Part shown: positions 2,220 through 23,709 of the stretch, piece after piece | Numbering within the stretch: the first letter of the stretch is position 1 | Layout: each line of letters starts with the position of its first letter | DNA from: Candidatus Peregrinibacteria bacterium | GTDB lineage: Bacteria > Patescibacteriota > Gracilibacteria > UM-FILTER-43-11 | NCBI GenBank assembly: GCA_016934215.1 | Contig: JAFGTE010000010.1 | Span: forward strand, 1-32,668 | DNA length: 32,668 nucleotides | Direction of reading: 5' to 3' | Made by a program: the position numbers and the translations under genes | Notes under the pieces: model-generated | Told to the model about the DNA's origin: nothing | The model's input: the letters and a program-made list of their open reading frames with translations, nothing else | Databases searched by the model: none

Positions 2220-4409
2220 ATGAGTTTTTTAAAAGAACTAAATGACCGGCAACGTGAAGCGGCGGAGACTTTAACGGGGCCACTCCTGATTATTGCGGGA
2301 GCGGGGAGCGGAAAAACGCGCGCCCTTACCTATCGGATTGCCCATCTGATTGAGCAAAAAATGGCACAGCCCTGGCAGATTTTAGCCGTCACTTTTACCA
2401 ATAAAGCAGCCGGTGAAATGCAGAGGCGGGTGGAACAGCTGCTTGCGGCAAACTTCGATCTGGGCGAAAAAAATAGGCCGATGATCGGCACTTTTCACTC
2501 TGTCTGTGTGCGGATTTTACGGAAGTACATTGATAAACTGGGTCGCGAAAAGACTTTTGTGATCTACGATGCCACCGATCAGCAGAGTCTGATGAAACGT
2601 TTGATCAAAGAGAATCAGGTGGATGATGAGAAGATCAAATATCAGGTGGCATTAGGCATGATCTCCAAATTCAAAAACCAGCTGAAGGGTTATGAGGATT
2701 TCCTGAACGCGGCCGGCAATCATTTTGAACGGCAGGTGGCCATACTTTTTGAAGCTTATGAAAAGCGGCTCAAAGAAAACAATGCGCTCGATTTTGATGA
2801 CCTCCTATTATATACGGTCAAACTCTTTCAGAAGCATCCCGAGGTGCTCGATGAGTATCAGGAACGCTGGCGATACATCTGCATTGATGAGTATCAGGAC
2901 ACGAACCACGCGCAGTACCTTCTGGCTAAACTTCTGGCGGCCAAGTACCGCAATATCTGCGTGATCGGGGACAGCGACCAGTCTATTTACAGTTTTCGCG
3001 GGGCGGACATCACCAATATTCTGGAATTCGAAAAAGATTATCAGGATGCCAAAGTCATTAAACTGGAACAGAACTATCGATCGACTCAGGTCATTCTGGA
3101 CGCGGCGGACAGTGTAATCGAAAAGAACAAACGACGAAAGAAAAAAAAGATGTGGACGGAAAAAGAAGGCGGTGATCTGATTGAGGTGATACATGCGCGG
3201 TCCGAAAACGAAGAGGCGGACTGGGTGGCTCGGGAAATCGAAAAGCTGATGCGTTTAAAACAAGTAAATCTGAAAGATATCGTGGTTTTGTACCGCACCA
3301 ACGCTCAGTCGCGCGTGCTGGAAGAAGCCTTTCTGCGTCACGGGCTGCCTTATAAAGTCATCGGTGGGGTAAAGTTCTATGCGCGCAAAGAAATCAAAGA
3401 TATTCTGGCTTATCTTCGGGTTATTCATAATCCGAACGATACCGACAGTCTGCTTCGCATCATCAACACGCCGCCCCGCCGCATCGGTCAGACAACCATC
3501 AACAAGCTGCAGGCTTTCGGGCTGGAACGGTCGCTTTCGCTGGCGGAAGTTCTTAACCATATTCAGATGGTCGATGAAGTAAAGGGGGCGACCAAAGAGG
3601 CATTGGTGGATTTCTGGAAAATAATCATGGATTTTCAGAAACGGGCCGTGGAACTTCCGGTATCGGAATTACTGCGTCAGGTAGTTAAGAAGATTGATTT
3701 CAAAAAATATCTGACGGATGACGGAACTGAAGAAGGGGAGATGCGTTATGAAAACGTGATGGAATTAATTTCGGTGGCCACGAAGTATGATGAAACCGAT
3801 CCGGAACTGTCGCTGGCTTACTTTCTGGAAGAAGTTTCGCTGGTGGCGGACACCGATCAGATCACCGAAGATATTTCGAACGTCACTTTAATGACTTTGC
3901 ACTCAGTTAAAGGTTTGGAATACCCGTATGTATTTATCGTGGGCTGTGAGGAAAATATTTTCCCGCATTCCCGGGCGCTTTTTGAAGAAAAAGATATGGA
4001 AGAGGAACGGCGGCTGATGTATGTGGGTGTGACGCGCGCCATGCACAAGCTTTATCTGCTCGCGGCCAAGCAGCGCATGCTTTATGGGGATTATCAGAGT
4101 AACCGGCTGTCCCGTTTTATCTATGATATTCCGGGTGAACTTGTTGAGACGACGGGACTTGAACCGAAACGGGAAATTTTCAGTGCTTTCGATCAGCGTT
4201 CCGAAGAGGAAATCGCGGAAGAAACCTTTGATCCAAAGATTGCCGAAAAGAAATTCAAAGACGGCGATAAAGTCGCGCACGCCAGCTTTGGAGAGGGTAT
4301 AGTGGTAGAGCGGAGAGGGGATTTAGTCACGGTTGCGTTCACCGATAAAAAAATCAGTATCAAAAAGTTTGCCGCCAATATCGCGCCGCTGGAAAAAATT
4401 ACGAGTTAA
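2220..4409 (+). CDS. pcrA: PcrA/UvrD-type superfamily 1 DNA helicase
   Basis: The product unwinds DNA 3' to 5' using ATP and acts in repair and replication restart. All SF1 motifs are visible: Walker A GAGSGKT (about residue 27), GTFHSVC, Walker B DEYQDTN (about 223), GDSDQSIYSFRGAD, QNYRST, LMTLHSVKGLEY and RRLMYVGVTRA. A C-terminal segment from about residue 679 (GDKVAHASFGEGIVV) matches the Tudor-like RNA-polymerase-binding end of PcrA. The frame is open to an ATG at 2106, but those 38 residues are not family-like; MSFLKELNDRQREA at 2220 is the normal N-terminus and gives 729 residues. The ksgA gene follows after 18 bp. Confidence 0.95.
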   Translation: MSFLKELNDRQREAAETLTGPLLIIAGAGSGKTRALTYRIAHLIEQKMAQPWQILAVTFTNKAAGEMQRRVEQLLAANFDLGEKNRPMIGTFHSVCVRILRKYIDKLGREKTFVIYDATDQQSLMKRLIKENQVDDEKIKYQVALGMISKFKNQLKGYEDFLNAAGNHFERQVAILFEAYEKRLKENNALDFDDLLLYTVKLFQKHPEVLDEYQERWRYICIDEYQDTNHAQYLLAKLLAAKYRNICVIGDSDQSIYSFRGADITNILEFEKDYQDAKVIKLEQNYRSTQVILDAADSVIEKNKRRKKKKMWTEKEGGDLIEVIHARSENEEADWVAREIEKLMRLKQVNLKDIVVLYRTNAQSRVLEEAFLRHGLPYKVIGGVKFYARKEIKDILAYLRVIHNPNDTDSLLRIINTPPRRIGQTTINKLQAFGLERSLSLAEVLNHIQMVDEVKGATKEALVDFWKIIMDFQKRAVELPVSELLRQVVKKIDFKKYLTDDGTEEGEMRYENVMELISVATKYDETDPELSLAYFLEEVSLVADTDQITEDISNVTLMTLHSVKGLEYPYVFIVGCEENIFPHSRALFEEKDMEEERRLMYVGVTRAMHKLYLLAAKQRMLYGDYQSNRLSRFIYDIPGELVETTGLEPKREIFSAFDQRSEEEIAEETFDPKIAEKKFKDGDKVAHASFGEGIVVERRGDLVTVAFTDKKISIKKFAANIAPLEKITS

Positions 4410-16487: not shown

Positions 16488-17441
16488 ATGTTCGAACTTC
16501 TTTCCGATTGGCTTGTATATTCGGTTTTTGGCCTCGCTCAGAGCACCCGGGAGGCTGAGATCTTCCATTTTTTTATCTATGATCTCCTTAAGATCTATCT
16601 TCTGATGCTGATCGTGGTACTTGTCATCAGTTTTATTCGCAGTTATCTACCGCCGCATCGTATTCGCAAGCTGATGATGCGCCAGCGCTTTGGTACCGGA
16701 AATATTCTGGCGGCGCTTTTGGGGGCGGTTACGCCTTTTTGCTCCTGCTCTTCCATTCCGCTTTTTATCGGATTTCTGGAAGCGGAAATTCCGCTGGGTA
16801 TCGCTTTTTCTTATATTATTACTTCGCCTTTGGTGAACGAGATCGCTTTTGTCATCATGGGCGGGATGTTCGGTTGGCGAATTGCCGTTATTTACGCACT
16901 CAGTGGTATTGTACTTGGAGTACTGGCCGGTCTTTTGATAGGGCGAATGAAGCTGGAAAAGGAAGTCCTCCTGAAGTTTGAAGGGGAAGCAGAGGGAAGT
17001 CTCAAGTTGGCTGATCTACCGAAGACGCTTGAGGGTAAATTGCGGTTTTCCGTTCAAAAATCCTGGGAAATCTTCAGGAAACTCTGGCTGATCATTGCTA
17101 TCGGTGTCGGTATCGGGGCCCTTATTCATGGCTTAATACCTGCCGAGTTCTTTCAGCAGTATCTGAGCGGTCATTCGGTTCTGGCGGTTCCTTTAGCCGT
17201 GATCGTTGGAGTGCCGATTTATGCGAACGCGTCCACTATTGTGCCGATCGCTTTTGCTCTCAGTACCAAAGGAATCCAGCTCGGCACGATATTGGCTTTT
17301 ATGATGGCGGTGGTCGGGTTATCACTTCCTGAAGCGATCATGCTGAAAAAGGTGATCAGCCTCAAACTGCTAGCGATTTTCTTTGGTCTGGTAGCCTTCG
17401 GCATTACAGTTATCGGTTTGCTGTTCAATTTTCTCACTTAA
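16488..17441 (+). CDS. PF03773 (ArsP/DUF318) permease
   Basis: The 317-residue polytopic protein has about eight membrane segments and the family signature TPFCSCSSIPLFIGF with SPLVNE about 30 residues later, repeated in weaker form as VPIYANASTIVPIAFAL in the second half. The two halves are separated by a charged loop at about 155-185. PF03773 includes ArsP, which exports organoarsenicals, and many members of unknown substrate, so a metalloid or organic-ion exporter is possible but not shown. A possible -10 TATACT is at 16445-16450. A second member of the family lies at 18094. The stop is two bases before tRNA-Met (opposite strand). Confidence 0.85.
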   Translation: MFELLSDWLVYSVFGLAQSTREAEIFHFFIYDLLKIYLLMLIVVLVISFIRSYLPPHRIRKLMMRQRFGTGNILAALLGAVTPFCSCSSIPLFIGFLEAEIPLGIAFSYIITSPLVNEIAFVIMGGMFGWRIAVIYALSGIVLGVLAGLLIGRMKLEKEVLLKFEGEAEGSLKLADLPKTLEGKLRFSVQKSWEIFRKLWLIIAIGVGIGALIHGLIPAEFFQQYLSGHSVLAVPLAVIVGVPIYANASTIVPIAFALSTKGIQLGTILAFMMAVVGLSLPEAIMLKKVISLKLLAIFFGLVAFGITVIGLLFNFLT

Positions 17442-17443
17442 AG

Positions 17444-17520
17444 TGGTGTCACCGGGTGGAATTGAACCACCGACCTCAGGCTTATGAGTCCTGCGCTCTA
17501 ACCAACTGAGCTACGGTGAC
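17444..17520 (-). tRNA. tRNA-Met(CAU)
   Basis: On the minus strand: acceptor GTCACCG/CGGTGAC, D-stem GCTC/GAGC, loop CTCATAA with anticodon CAT, T-arm GGTGG-TTCAATT-CCACC, discriminator A and encoded CCA (17446-17444). There is an A-G mismatch at the base of the anticodon loop (31-39). Elongator Met is most likely; a tRNA-Ile with lysidine-modified CAU cannot be excluded from sequence alone. Confidence 0.92.
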
Positions 17521-17580: not shown

Positions 17581-17898
17581 TTATTGAACTGGACCAATAA
17601 AACTTCCGTCACTGGCTTTAAAAGCGTAGGTTTGCTCTAAATTACTCTGTATCATGTGGATCTGACCATTACCGTCTGATTGACACATAACAGTAAGACC
17701 TTCACCGTGTGGTCCTACTAAGCGGATATAGTGTTCGCGATGTTGTTTGACCATTTGAACTGTTTCAGGTTTTAAACCCGTTTCAGGATTAACGATCTTG
17801 AATACAGTTGACCTGTGATCAGCTGCAACAGCTGGTTCAAGGACGAAATCGCCTTTGATTTTCGGGGCTACGTCGTAGCTTGGGACAACTTCACTCAT
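17581..17898 (-). CDS. hypothetical protein, 105 residues, under a leucine attenuator
   Basis: I do not recognise this soluble protein. Its N-terminal 30 residues are flexible and acidic. The rest suggests a small beta-rich fold: VFKIVNPETG, HYIRLVGPHGEGLTVMCQS, GQIHMIQSNLEQTYAFKASDG. There is one cysteine. The ATG at 17898 follows an intrinsic terminator by 28 bases with no room for a promoter between, so expression must come from read-through of the leader at 17926-18053. That leader encodes a Leu-rich peptide, so the protein should be made when charged tRNA-Leu is scarce. What it does in leucine limitation is unknown; it is not a leucine biosynthesis enzyme that I can recognise. Confidence 0.65.
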   Translation of the reverse strand: MSEVVPSYDVAPKIKGDFVLEPAVAADHRSTVFKIVNPETGLKPETVQMVKQHREHYIRLVGPHGEGLTVMCQSDGNGQIHMIQSNLEQTYAFKASDGSFIGPVQ

Positions 17899-17925: not shown

Positions 17926-17949
17926 AAAAAATCCGCCTTTAGTGGCGGA
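17926..17949 (-). terminator. intrinsic terminator of the attenuator
   Basis: On the minus strand TCCGCC (17949-17944), a six-base loop, GGCGGA (17937-17932) and six T (17931-17926) form a textbook terminator 28 bases upstream of the gene it precedes. Its 5' arm and loop contain CGCCACTA (17947-17940), exactly complementary to TAGTGGCG at 17993-17986 in the leader, so an antiterminator pairing competes with it. Confidence 0.85.
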
Positions 17950-17975
17950 GTTGATTGGTTATTTAATTTTCTATA

Positions 17976-18036
17976 GCAAACTACTCGCCACTAGGTGACA
18001 TTCAGAAGGAGTAGAAGCTGTAGAGCGTTGTTTTGC
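17976..18036 (-). promoter_or_regulatory. attenuator leader hairpin (pause/anti-antiterminator)
   Basis: On the minus strand CTACTC (18014-18009), which are Leu codons 10-11 of the leader peptide, pairs with GAGTAG (17986-17981). The stem is extended by GCAAA (18036-18032) with TTTGC (17980-17976). Forming it occupies the edge of TAGTGGCG (17993-17986) and so prevents the antiterminator. A ribosome stalled on the Leu codons would block this stem. Confidence 0.65.
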
Positions 18037-18041
18037 ACCAT
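17991..18041 (-). CDS. leucine-rich leader peptide of an attenuator
   Basis: The ATG at 18041 begins a 16-residue peptide, MVQNNALQLLLLLNVT, ending at TAG (17993-17991). Codons 9-13 are CTT CTA CTC CTT CTG, five leucines in a row using four different CTN codons, with a sixth Leu at position 7. The start is about 12 nt after the predicted transcription start. The Leu run coincides with the 5' arm of the leader hairpin and the stop codon lies at the antiterminator strand, the arrangement seen in leu, trp and his operon leaders. I know of no function for the peptide beyond its translation. Confidence 0.75.
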   Translation of the reverse strand: MVQNNALQLLLLLNVT

Positions 18042-18059
18042 AATCTGTTCTTTGCTGAC

Positions 18060-18088
18060 ATTTTATACTCTGACTTCTATTTTGTCAA
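18060..18088 (-). promoter_or_regulatory. promoter of the leucine attenuator unit
   Basis: On the minus strand TTGACA (18088-18083), a 17-bp spacer and TAAAAT (18065-18060). The transcript would start near 18053. The promoter lies directly after the stop codon of the preceding permease gene. Confidence 0.75.
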
Positions 18089-18093
18089 ATTCT

Positions 18094-19101
18094 TTAAAGA
18101 TACAGATTGAAAAGGTAGGCCACCAATAATACTTGGGGAACTGTAATAATCGGCAGCCAGATGGCGGCTTTTTTGCCGATATTGCTCCAGATTAGTCCGA
18201 TTTCCGTGTAGTCGGTGACTACGCCGGCCATCAGAAAGATGAAAGGGTTTCCCAGAGTGCCGACTTTATTGAAGATTTCAAAGGCGATCGGAGCGCTTCC
18301 TTCAGAACAAACTTCGATGATGGTCGCAAAGAGCAGGGTAAGCACCATACCCAAAAAGTCCGGTCCGAAATATTGGGTGAATATATGGGCAGGCACATAA
18401 GCGCCGATGACGCCGGCCAGCATAAAACCAATGAGGATCCACCAGAGAATCATATTGGCCAGATCGACGGCTCCTTTCAGAGTTCCATGGGCCGCTTTTT
18501 CAAGATTAAAATTCGTGAAAGCCGTCCATTGGTAGCTGGTGTCAAAGCGATGGCCTTGATGGGTTTCGACCCAGTCGGCTTTTTCAAGTATCATGTAAAT
18601 TAAGCCCGTAATTACCGCGATGACCATAGCAGCCAAAATAAACAGAAGTGCCTTCCACCCAAAAAACCCGAAGAGCAGAATAGTCACCGGCAGGTTGGCC
18701 CAGGGGGAGGCCAGCAGAAAGGTGACGATCGAGGAAGTACTGGCTCCTTTTTTGTAAAGCTGCATCGAAATGGCCAGAATACCGTGACTGCAGGCGGACA
18801 TCAGAAACCCCGCAATCACGGCATAGAAGATAGTTCTGACCTTCCGTTGTCCCAGGTATTTGAAAACGAAGTTCTCGGGAATAAAGTGGTCGATCAGCCC
18901 GCCGATCAGTAGCCCCAGCAGGATGGCCCACCAGATGACTTTGAGATAGGAAACCAGGCTTTCGTTAAGCGGAGCCAGTGCCGGTAGGTAAGAAAGGGTA
19001 AAAAGGACAATGAAAAAGCCCCCCACGATTTTGAGTTTTCTGCCGAGTCTGATCGGCTCGGCAGGTGTGACACAGTGTTCGCAGGAGGCTTCATGTTTCA
19101 T
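18094..19101 (-). CDS. PF03773 (DUF318) permease, second copy
   Basis: The 335-residue protein begins with a cytosolic CEHC motif (MKHEASCEHCVTPAEP) and has about eight membrane helices. The diagnostic block is SACSHGILAISMQLYKKGAST followed by LLASPWANLPVT; the second half has EVCSEGSAPIAFEIF. It is therefore a different branch from the copy at 16488, which has the TPFCSCSS signature. CEHC could bind a metal or metalloid, as could the CSH site; the substrate is not known. The frame extends to TTG at 19110, but ATG 19101 is the better start. It is the last gene of the five-gene operon, nine bases after the DUF4349-like gene. Confidence 0.85.
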   Translation of the reverse strand: MKHEASCEHCVTPAEPIRLGRKLKIVGGFFIVLFTLSYLPALAPLNESLVSYLKVIWWAILLGLLIGGLIDHFIPENFVFKYLGQRKVRTIFYAVIAGFLMSACSHGILAISMQLYKKGASTSSIVTFLLASPWANLPVTILLFGFFGWKALLFILAAMVIAVITGLIYMILEKADWVETHQGHRFDTSYQWTAFTNFNLEKAAHGTLKGAVDLANMILWWILIGFMLAGVIGAYVPAHIFTQYFGPDFLGMVLTLLFATIIEVCSEGSAPIAFEIFNKVGTLGNPFIFLMAGVVTDYTEIGLIWSNIGKKAAIWLPIITVPQVLLVAYLFNLYL

Positions 19102-19110
19102 TTGATACAA

Positions 19111-20183: not shown

Positions 20184-21266
20184 TTAAAGTTTAACTGTTT
20201 TTTGAATTAAATATTCATCCGCCAGTACCAAAGCCGTCATGGCTTCCACGATCGGTACGGCGCGGGGAAGAACGCAGGGGTCATGACGTCCGGACATTTG
20301 GAGACTAGTTCCCCGGCCTTTATTGGTCAGGGTTTTTTGTTTTTTGAAGATGGTAGCGGTGGGTTTAAAAGCCACGCGGAAGACGATGTCCATTCCATTA
20401 CTAATTCCTCCTACGATTCCACCGGCGTTATTGGTTCTGGTGATAATTTTTTGCCCCCTTTTTGTCAAAATATCATTATGTTGTGAGCCTGTCAGCAGAG
20501 TGGCGGAAAAGCCGCTGCCCACTTCAAATCCCTTCGTCGCAGGCAGACTGAGCATGGCCTGGGCTAACCGGGCATCGAGTCTATCAAAAACAGGGCTACC
20601 GAGGCCTGCAGGCACATTTCTGATGACGCATTCAATGACTCCCCCCACGCTGTCACCGTCTTTCTTTATTTTTTCAATCAGTTGGGTCATTTTGCTGGCG
20701 GCCGTTTTGTCGGGGCAGCGCATGGGATTGCTTTCGATTTGACTGAATTTAACAGCGTCTGGATTGATACTGGCCTTTATTTCGCGCACTTCCTTCACAT
20801 AAGCCAGAATTTCAACTTTTGCCTTCTTTTTTAAAATTTTCCTGGCGATGGCTCCGGCTGCGACTCTTCCGGCGGTTTCGCGGGCGCTGGCCCGGCCACC
20901 CCCCCGGTGATCCCGAAGGCCGTATTTGGCATCATAAGTAAAGTCAGCATGAGAAGGACGGTAAGTATCAGCTAATTTGCTGTAATCTTTACTTATCTGA
21001 TCTTTGTTATCAATGATCAGACTGATGGGTGTTCCTGTTGTTAAACCATGAAGTACCCCCGACATGATTTTAACTTTATCTTCTTCTTTGCGACTGGTCG
21101 TGATACTGCTTTGTCCGGGTCTTCGACGGTCCAGTTCTGTCTGAATTTCTTTCTCTGAAATTTCCAGTCCGGCAGGGCAGCCATCGATTACTACGCCTAA
21201 AGCGGGGCCATGAGATTCACCCCAGGTCGTGATGCGAAAAAGACTTCCAAAAGAGTTACCAGCCAT
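20184..21266 (-). CDS. aroC: chorismate synthase
   Basis: Chorismate synthase converts EPSP to chorismate, the last step of the shikimate pathway, using reduced FMN. All three family signatures are present: [14 protein letters not shown] (about 17-30), [16 protein letters not shown] (about 118-133) and the C-terminal [17 protein letters not shown]. The length of 360 matches the family. No other shikimate or aromatic amino-acid gene is in the window. It is embedded between pilin-like and DUF4349-like genes, 34 bases after the former, an odd neighbourhood for this enzyme. If the rest of the pathway is absent elsewhere in the genome, its substrate would have to be imported. Confidence 0.96.
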
Positions 21267-21300: not shown

Positions 21301-22773
21301 TTACCTGAATACTACCAGCGTGGCCACAATCACGTAGGCACTGAGTACGACAATGATTCCGATGATGGCATTGCGTATGATTTTTTTTGATTTTTCCACC
21401 ATTTCATCGTTCCCGTAATTTATGATCATGGTGGCAGCACCATAAACCAAAGCGGCAAAAGCAACGAGACCCACAAAGCCTAAAAGAAACTGAATCACAC
21501 TGCCGATGGTATTGATGATGGAAGTAATATTGGAAGTCCGAATCTGATCACTTTGCTCCTGGGTGGGGATCACAAAAATCTGTTCAATTAAAATTTTATC
21601 GATGGCGATCAGAATGAGACCGACGCCAACCCAGAGCAGGGATTTTTTTTGTTTGGTAATCACATCTTCCTCACCGGCTGCGAAGAGAATTTGTGCGCCG
21701 CTGATGACGATAAAAAGGATCGCAATCGTGCCAATAAGGGCTTTAATAAAATTAACGAGTCCGTAGATCTCGTTTGAGAATCCCACATCTTTGATGAGTT
21801 CCGTTCTTTGTACCCCTGCCGGACCATATAAGTAATCAATGCCGCGGTCTGCCAGAAGTACGGCTACTAAGCCGACACCTGCATACATAATGGCTCTTTT
21901 TTGTTCGGTGATGATATTCTCATCCCCCTGGGCAAAGACCATTCGGGTCCCTGCGTAGACAATCCAGAGTACCGCAATTCCTATAAGAAGATTTTTAATG
22001 GTGTTGGCGATGCTGCGAGTAATCAGATTGATCTGGCTTTCGCCTTCAGCTTCTGCCTGGACGATGGCTAAGCTGTCTTCGATGAGAGCTATATCATCAC
22101 TGCTAAGTTCTTCCACGTTAGAAAGAAGATCTCTCATAGGAAGTCTGATCATCACTTCCTCGTCGCCAACCAACTGAGAATCTGCCAGATCCTGAAGGCT
22201 GGTGTAGCCTTCATTCTCCAGGACGCCGATGATTCTGTTCGGAAGAGGCCCCCATTTGCTGTAGTTAAAATAGAAATCAATTTCGTGGAAAAGCAGATTA
22301 ATACCTTCTTCTTTATTGAGCGAACCAGTATTCCCCAGCGCATTGCCTATATCGTCCTTGATTTCAAATTCCAGATCTTCAATGTCTTCTTTTAAGCCGT
22401 CAATCATCAGTTGCTGGTTTTCGAGTTCTTCGGTATCTGTCATTCCGCTTTTGGCAGCTTCTGCCGTGCCAAGTTGTCTGCGCAGTGCTGTCAGCCCGAA
22501 TTCACCGATAAAATCATCTTCAAATGTTGCGGCGAAACCGCTCAGGCGTTCGAAATCCTTATTTATCATATAATCCTCCCATTTTTGTGGTAAGGATCCC
22601 CAAGCCTGGGTGGGTTTTGAATAATCGATCACAGAAATGCCTTCTCCTTCCAGTTTTGCCTTTATAGCGTCCAGCGCATTGAATTCGTTCTGGGCAAAAG
22701 TGGTTGTAGCGAAAGTGAGAAGAAATATTCCTGTCAGCAGGAGTCCGCTGGTGATTTTTTCAAGTGTTTTCAT
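21301..22773 (-). CDS. VirB2-like (T4SS pilin-type) protein with three pilin repeats and long N-terminal domain
   Basis: A signal peptide (residues 1-27, TFA-Q site) is followed by a soluble acidic, helical domain (28-245) and three copies of a two-helix unit of about 60 residues (about 255-312, 335-395 and 425-487). Each copy has a first helix, a charged loop (AQGDENIITEQK, AAGEEDVITKQK, NYGNDEMVEKSK) and a second helix, the pattern of VirB2/TrbC-like pilins. Single VirB2 pilins are one such unit; here three are fused. It is directly adjacent to the next pilin-like gene (stop TAA and ATG touch). I see no secretion ATPase or coupling protein in the window. Confidence 0.75.
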   Translation of the reverse strand: MKTLEKITSGLLLTGIFLLTFATTTFAQNEFNALDAIKAKLEGEGISVIDYSKPTQAWGSLPQKWEDYMINKDFERLSGFAATFEDDFIGEFGLTALRRQLGTAEAAKSGMTDTEELENQQLMIDGLKEDIEDLEFEIKDDIGNALGNTGSLNKEEGINLLFHEIDFYFNYSKWGPLPNRIIGVLENEGYTSLQDLADSQLVGDEEVMIRLPMRDLLSNVEELSSDDIALIEDSLAIVQAEAEGESQINLITRSIANTIKNLLIGIAVLWIVYAGTRMVFAQGDENIITEQKRAIMYAGVGLVAVLLADRGIDYLYGPAGVQRTELIKDVGFSNEIYGLVNFIKALIGTIAILFIVISGAQILFAAGEEDVITKQKKSLLWVGVGLILIAIDKILIEQIFVIPTQEQSDQIRTSNITSIINTIGSVIQFLLGFVGLVAFAALVYGAATMIINYGNDEMVEKSKKIIRNAIIGIIVVLSAYVIVATLVVFR

Positions 22774-23709
22774 TTAGGCTATATAGGTATTCAGAAACCC
22801 TATTTCTGCTGAGGTGAGTGTGTTCACCAAAGCGTAGGCACCGTAAATAATGACGATGGCCACCACGCCTTCCACGATCATTCTTTTTCCTTTAGTAGCC
22901 CGATCTTCATTGTCCAGAGCGGTCAGATAAATATAACCCGCGTAGATCGTAAAAATAATGGCCAAAGGTCCGACAAAAACAAGAATTAAACGAATCACTC
23001 CGGCAAACTCGCCGATTCCCGTTTCCGCCGCCGCCGCTCTGGTTTCTGCGGGTTCGTTCAGAACGTAGATACTGTTGACGATGTTGCTGGCCAGCATGAT
23101 TGTCAGGAGTCCCAGAAAACTCCATGTAATGTTTCTTTTCTGTTTGGTGATAGCCTCTTCTTCACCACGGGCAGTAATCATTCTGATAGAACTGATAACC
23201 ATCATCAGGACTGCCACAGAACCCAGTAACCACTTGATGTAATCTGTGATATCTCTGAGCTGATCCCGGGCGGCATCAAAGTCAATCAGCTGGGCCGTTG
23301 TTGCCCTTTCCGGATTGAAAATAGAGGCCACGTTTTCCGCGATAATCAACATCATAAAACCAAGTAAGGCATAGAGAAAATTATTTTTTTGTTTGGTAAT
23401 CACGTCTTCCTGTCCACGGGCAATCACCAGCCGAAAGCCGTATAATACCCCCATAATCAAAGCTACCCCTCCTACGACATTTCTGATGATTCGGATCAGA
23501 TTTTTAGCAAAACCGATCGCCAGTTCCTCTCCTGAGGCTGTCGTGGGGGCAAAGGTTTTAACACCCCCCAGGTACTTGTCCCATCCTTCCCCCAGATAGC
23601 TTTGGGCATGGGCTATTTTTACAGTAAAAAGAAGCAGGACAAAAAAGCCTGCCCATGGCACCATGATTCTGAAAGCCCGAATGATTTTGTTTTTGTTTAT
23701 TTTTGGCAC
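22774..23709 (-). CDS. VirB2-like protein with three pilin repeats
   Basis: The 311 residues hold a signal peptide (cleavage near AHA-Q, residue 35) and three two-helix pilin units at about 67-130, 152-212 and 233-296. The loops read ARGQEDVITKQK, ARGEEEAITKQK and ALDNEDRATKGK, so repeats 1 and 2 are closely related to each other and to repeat 2 of the neighbour. The start is GTG at 23709 with GAGG just upstream. It heads the five-gene operon behind the promoter at 23730-23757. As T4SS pilin-like proteins they may form a surface filament or a membrane channel; neither is shown. Confidence 0.75.
   Translation of the reverse strand: MPKINKNKIIRAFRIMVPWAGFFVLLLFTVKIAHAQSYLGEGWDKYLGGVKTFAPTTASGEELAIGFAKNLIRIIRNVVGGVALIMGVLYGFRLVIARGQEDVITKQKNNFLYALLGFMMLIIAENVASIFNPERATTAQLIDFDAARDQLRDITDYIKWLLGSVAVLMMVISSIRMITARGEEEAITKQKRNITWSFLGLLTIMLASNIVNSIYVLNEPAETRAAAAETGIGEFAGVIRLILVFVGPLAIIFTIYAGYIYLTALDNEDRATKGKRMIVEGVVAIVIIYGAYALVNTLTSAEIGFLNTYIA

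Follow-up and report, generated by a model that had tools for sequence, protein, structure and literature searches.

A probable leucine attenuator ahead of an orphan reading frame in a patescibacterial genome with several amino-acid attenuators

Why would a bacterium that very probably cannot make leucine carry a leucine attenuator, and what would such an element control? The window, the whole 32,668-nt stretch of DNA analysed here, raises this question with a promoter, a leucine-rich leader frame and a terminator that lie on its minus strand just upstream of a 105-residue open reading frame (ORF). Patescibacteria are commonly regarded as stripped-down and poorly regulated. In the open literature that we searched, we found no report of amino-acid attenuators in Patescibacteria, in line with a sequence-only reading that knew of none of this kind. 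Our analysis indicates that the element most likely acts by classical ribosome-mediated transcription attenuation, sensing the charging of leucyl-tRNA.

The leader has the anatomy of an attenuator. Every element that the sequence-only reading had named (promoter, Leu frame, pairings and terminator) is present on the minus strand where it was placed, exact to the base (Table 1). The antiterminator strand had been given as 8 nt, TAGTGGCG at 17993-17986 opposite CGCCACTA at 17947-17940; its position holds, but the helix is longer, with 11 pairs and one bulged base joining 17993-17983 to 17951-17940. The terminator (full sequence TCCGCCACTAAAGGCGGATTTTTT) has a six-pair stem at 17949-17932 and six T at 17931-17926. 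Five of the 16 leader codons are Leu codons, and a six-frame scan of the window found no other run of five or more. The fold energy of the 128-nt leader lies 3.0 sd below that of shuffles. The leader ORF has no strong Shine-Dalgarno sequence ahead of it. A separate promoter between 17899 and 17925 would have spoken against attenuation, and no second promoter-like site was found there.

Table 1. Features of the attenuator locus in the window. Leader peptides are written here and in the text up to the stop codon.
Feature	Position	Strand	Basis or remark
Promoter, TTGACA-17-TAAAAT	18060..18088	(-)	11/12 consensus bases matched
Leader peptide ORF, MVQNNALQLLLLLNVT	17991..18041, incl. stop codon	(-)	Sequence; ATG 18041, TAG 17991, 16 codons
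Regulatory run, Leu codons 9-13 (CTT CTA CTC CTT CTG)	18003..18017	(-)	Codon-run scan
Segment 1, CTACTC (partner GAGTAG, 17986-17981)	18009..18014	(-)	Minimum-energy fold
Segment 2, TAGTGGCGAGT, antiterminator strand starting at the leader stop codon	17983..17993	(-)	Pairs with 17951-17940 in stalled-ribosome fold
Segment 3, ACTCCGCCACTA, 5' arm plus loop of the terminator and partner of the antiterminator strand	17940..17951	(-)	Sequence, folding, register test
Intrinsic terminator, TCCGCC-ACTAAA-GGCGGA and six T (segments 3:4)	17926..17949	(-)	Sequence, folding
105-residue orphan ORF, putative attenuated gene	17581..17898	(-)	ATG 27 nt past the T run
tRNA-Met(CAT), next gene downstream	17444..17520	(-)	In G002, too, the syntenic site has it on its 3' side

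Folding predicts a switch that is thrown by the position of the ribosome. For each leader we computed how probable it is that the terminator's 5' arm has found a partner in a transcript that does not yet include the 3' arm, placing the ribosome either on the key codons or at the stop codon. The difference was compared with a null in which only the letters from the stall site to the terminator were shuffled. In the window leader the 5' arm is predicted to be sequestered with probability 0.84 when the ribosome stalls and 0.03 when it reaches the stop codon, a difference matched by none of 200 shuffles, which bears out the claim that antiterminator and terminator are mutually exclusive and are switched by a stall on the Leu codons. 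Over the 24 leaders folded, the 5' arm is likewise predicted to be sequestered under a stalled ribosome and free under a ribosome at the stop codon; the swing averages 0.73, whereas shuffles give means of about 0.0 to 0.25. The combined P of about 7e-21 over these 24 leaders is overstated, because the leaders are related and their kinship was ignored. The test is not circular for the leaders that the upstream scan described below supplied, since they were chosen by terminator and codons and not by antiterminator. The antiterminator register is likewise favoured: 83% and 88% of cells are paired in register, compared with 29 to 64% in slid registers (one set comprising 8 leaders). Covariation of the antiterminator pairing, tested by column shuffling, did not reach significance, since most of the paired letters do not vary.

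The 1:2 hairpin, which joins 18014-18009 to 17986-17981, is the weakest element and is modestly supported. It appears in the minimum-energy fold computed for the full leader; in untranslated nascent RNA, however, before the 3' arm of the terminator emerges, the antiterminator is predicted to be preferred. The untranslated, superattenuated state is therefore ambiguous, as the hairpin does not stand clearly above the antiterminator before segment 4 emerges. Reading by eye, we found counterparts of the segment 1 pairing in two relatives (CTACACG/CGTGTAG and CTATGC/GCGTAG).

The window attenuator, described on its own in the sequence-only reading, is not a lone oddity. It is one of at least four in its genome (G000), which has three further leaders, and its family and class supply about 20 more. 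Weak matches from a family DNA search led to a complete leader at G000:C16:16235-16399 (peptide MNTWNVLHVVLVLNPL, Val/Leu type), which has the strand TAGTGGCG.GTAGTTT and the terminator core as in the window and whose target gene is not recognisable. Its counterpart in the congener G001:C95 encodes MSNYPMLRWFLVINPLCGA. These two leaders and the window leader share 13 codons ahead of an Asn codon and a constant frame length, and a covariance model built from the three and run on the family found additional leaders. The terminator core recurs in other leaders of the same genome, and TTGACA promoters of similar kind were also seen at related leaders. Other DNA matches to the Leu run, at G000:C4:18515, in G008 and at G012:C50, proved to be ordinary coding sequence or to lack an attenuator.

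Related leaders with other codon runs precede matching biosynthetic genes, which agrees with the proposed kinship to leu, trp and his leaders. An Ile leader in G000:C14 (MNTVSQNIISIIIQKPA) lies upstream of a LeuA-like gene, an arrangement also found in G005, a member of another genus in the family, and a Phe/Tyr leader in G000:C4, around position 21250 (MHSSNYFFYGFYFKVR), lies upstream of DAHP synthase. G005 also has a Leu-6 leader, ahead of a gene of unknown kind. In G009, G012 and G013, aromatic leaders are followed by DAHP synthase and then by an apparent AroB. We also scanned directly upstream of HMGL-like (PF00682) and DAHP synthase (PF00793) genes in 58 relatives. Aromatic leaders precede DAHP synthase thirteen times (twelve by the scan, G000:C4 included, and a thirteenth read in G017), and LeuA-type genes in the scan are preceded by five Ile and three Leu leaders. 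The leaders from the scan are spread over several families of the class. As a control, we applied an explicit aromatic-leader criterion to DAHP synthase loci of which nearly all lie in other phyla, and only 3 of the 80 qualified. Wherever the downstream gene is recognisable, the codon run matches its pathway, the hallmark by which leader-peptide attenuation is recognised. For this leader type, codon run and pairings are kept across family and class.

Several of these loci hold further features of their own. Behind the Val/Leu/Ile-type attenuators at G000:C16:16235-16800, G001:C95, G010:C50 and G016:C22 comes a hairpin whose end lies in or close to GGTGTGGTCT, and then short ORFs that are mutually dissimilar; those of G000 (69 residues) and G001 (59 residues) each have a strong Shine-Dalgarno sequence. 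These two loci also go on to a second hairpin, GCTCCGCC...GGCGGAGC. This region may be a structured RNA or encode fast-evolving small proteins under branched-chain amino-acid control. The Ile attenuator at G000:C14:78298-80100 precedes a distant LeuA-like protein of 567 residues, and similar pairs occur in G005, G033, G042 and G044. Records from Lentisphaeria and Clostridia show aromatic leader peptides (MNKNYGKIYRFSFYFYFRGGACRAMI and MKVTVNSAAYSFYYFYFSNGKK) and terminators upstream of DAHP synthase, apparently attenuators in other phyla. The DAHP synthase genes of the class-mates G048:C2 and G056:C18 contain 24 and 14 in-frame TGA codons and are otherwise open, consistent with TGA being read as an amino acid, which points to Gracilibacteria as the probable class.

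A leucine attenuator in this genome would not serve leucine biosynthesis. The LeuC/aconitase (PF00330) and IlvD (PF00920) families are absent from the 96%-complete genome and from most of the family, while the same searches were positive in all 14 control genomes. The sole HMGL-like gene of the genome is a distant relative of LeuA, scoring 140 bits against a cut-off of 532. The organism is thus very probably unable to make leucine, isoleucine or valine, as the earlier claim of no service to a leucine pathway had it. Because both families are absent, the Leu attenuator would report supply, by uptake or host provision, and not pathway output or a need for leucine synthesis. Aromatic synthesis seems to be present, at least in part, with DAHP synthase in the genome and chorismate synthase in the window.

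The putative target is an orphan. Searches with its 105-residue product returned no homolog from 98 relatives or from GTDB genome contigs, IMG/VR, phages, plasmids, Pfam, NCBIfam and PDB. It has no match to a known pathway enzyme, so the locus cannot be classed as leuL proper, which controls leucine pathway genes. The claim that the leader switches on this protein divides in two: folding supports the switch, and the ORF is a candidate target by its position, with a start codon spaced as in other attenuated genes and enzymes. Its codon usage is atypical, at -0.03 per codon compared with 0.15 to 0.38 for the window genes tested, a score within the range of spurious frames. The ORF may have arisen recently as a gene, may be of foreign origin, or may not be a gene. 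Its product is poor in leucine (4.8%, compared with 10.7% in window genes; P 0.03), as is the unrelated 167-residue product that follows the Leu-6 leader in G005 (4.2%, compared with 10.7%; P 0.002). Low leucine content is what one would expect of a gene transcribed under leucine starvation, although two proteins are few.

Candidate relationships of the protein were set aside. A weak likeness of residues 3-50 to the C-terminal part of nucleoside diphosphate kinases scores above all 2000 shuffles of the protein, yet, as a choice from among hundreds of genomes with E of about 0.02 per genome over 380 genomes, it is not significant. A PHROG match (E 0.095) was disregarded, kinship with the 167-residue protein of G005 was rejected because about 30% of shuffles reach an equal score, and an AlphaFold model made without an alignment has pLDDT 41 and is unusable.

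We found no ortholog of the window locus; at the syntenic site of the congener G002, a permease is followed by tRNA-Met, with neither leader nor ORF. At that site (G002:C35, about 3620-3790), a damaged partial copy of tRNA-Met lies just upstream of the intact gene, which suggests a rearrangement at the tRNA-Met gene. In the window, ArsP_1-family permeases at 16488-17441 (+) and 18094-19110 (-) converge around attenuator, ORF and tRNA. Farther off, at 21301-23709 (-), two adjacent proteins have three T4SS_pilin model matches each.

These features fit the following scheme. RNA polymerase would start near 18053, with ribosomes translating the leader ORF as it emerges. With charged Leu-tRNA at hand, the ribosome would reach the stop codon and cover segment 2, the terminator would form, and an RNA of about 128 nt would result. 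When Leu-tRNA is scarce, a ribosome stalled on codons 9-13 would leave 17993-17983 to pair with 17951-17940, and no terminator would form. RNA polymerase would then continue into the 105-residue ORF, which we infer to be the target, and perhaps into the tRNA-Met gene, possibly co-transcribed on read-through.

The leader might instead be a relic or a transplant, left behind when a leucine biosynthetic gene that it once preceded was lost, or itself moved by duplication, with the ORF a chance or decaying frame that has no function. LeuC and IlvD are missing from the genome, class-mates have Leu leaders ahead of LeuA, the orphan ORF has atypical codon usage, and the syntenic site in G002 holds neither leader nor ORF. 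We nevertheless judge this unlikely, as the predicted switch is intact and strong and 105 codons stay open behind an ATG at the spacing typical of attenuated genes. In G005, moreover, the Leu-6 leader precedes a different, unrelated gene, and both products are leucine-poor.

That the leader is a unit of its own, a small RNA or small-protein gene with a promoter, a 16-residue peptide and a constitutive terminator and no connection to the ORF downstream, seems quite improbable. The unit is complete from promoter to terminator in about 128 nt, and the short ORFs behind the C16-type copies are poorly conserved, yet the peptides of related leaders vary freely and keep only the codon type, which matches the downstream enzyme, and neither peptide nor small-RNA function would explain an antiterminator strand that shuffles do not reproduce. 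We give still less credence to stalling from another cause, nascent-chain arrest or a ribosome-targeting drug, which would make the leader a sensor of drugs or translation stress. Any stall at codons 9-13 would throw the same RNA switch, but the runs vary (Leu, Ile, Val/Leu, Phe/Tyr/Trp) with the pathway of the gene behind them, which is not expected of drug-responsive leaders. Attenuation governed by leucyl-tRNA charging thus remains our preferred reading.

The mechanism of attenuation is known. Going by the open literature searched, what is new is that it occurs in several amino-acid flavours in Patescibacteria and is putatively coupled here, in a leucine auxotroph, to an orphan gene. Tentatively, and with more doubt than confidence, we propose that branched-chain attenuators have been cut loose from biosynthesis in this leucine-auxotrophic, probably host-dependent bacterium and serve as supply sensors, inducing lineage-specific, leucine-poor orphans (105 residues here, 167 in G005) when leucine fails. 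Four or more differently tuned attenuators in a genome of 1 Mb would show leader-peptide regulation to extend through a deep bacterial branch, and one retained for an amino acid that the cell cannot make would single out the downstream genes as part of the response when supply fails. Such attenuators would then be a sequence handle on otherwise unknown genes.

Proteobacteria control their leu, ilv, trp, his and phe operons by ribosome-mediated attenuators, of which leuL of E. coli is the type. The window leader resembles these in its run of regulatory codons in a leader peptide, its mutually exclusive antiterminator and terminator, and a U run close upstream of a gene; unlike them, it belongs to Patescibacteria, is shorter, precedes an orphan target and lies in a genome that lacks the leucine pathway. 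T-box riboswitches bind tRNA directly and need no leader peptide. Like the modelled window leader, they react to the charging state of one particular tRNA and are able to govern termination; Rfam searches of the window leader returned no T-box match at E up to 5, and matches to Arrc14 and rseX fell far below threshold. Candidate attenuators in Actinobacteria (trp, trpS, leuS and ilvB leaders) were likewise predicted from leader codons and competing hairpins, and those of leuS show that Leu leaders are able to control non-biosynthetic genes (PMC1262725). Their targets are pathway or synthetase genes, and the LEU element of leuA is a pseudoknot, unlike the window structure (PMC1262725). In Staphylococcus aureus, a leucine-rich attenuator peptide is reported to control branched-chain amino-acid synthesis (PMC5794164); the leader peptide is used as proposed for the window, but in an organism that has the pathway.
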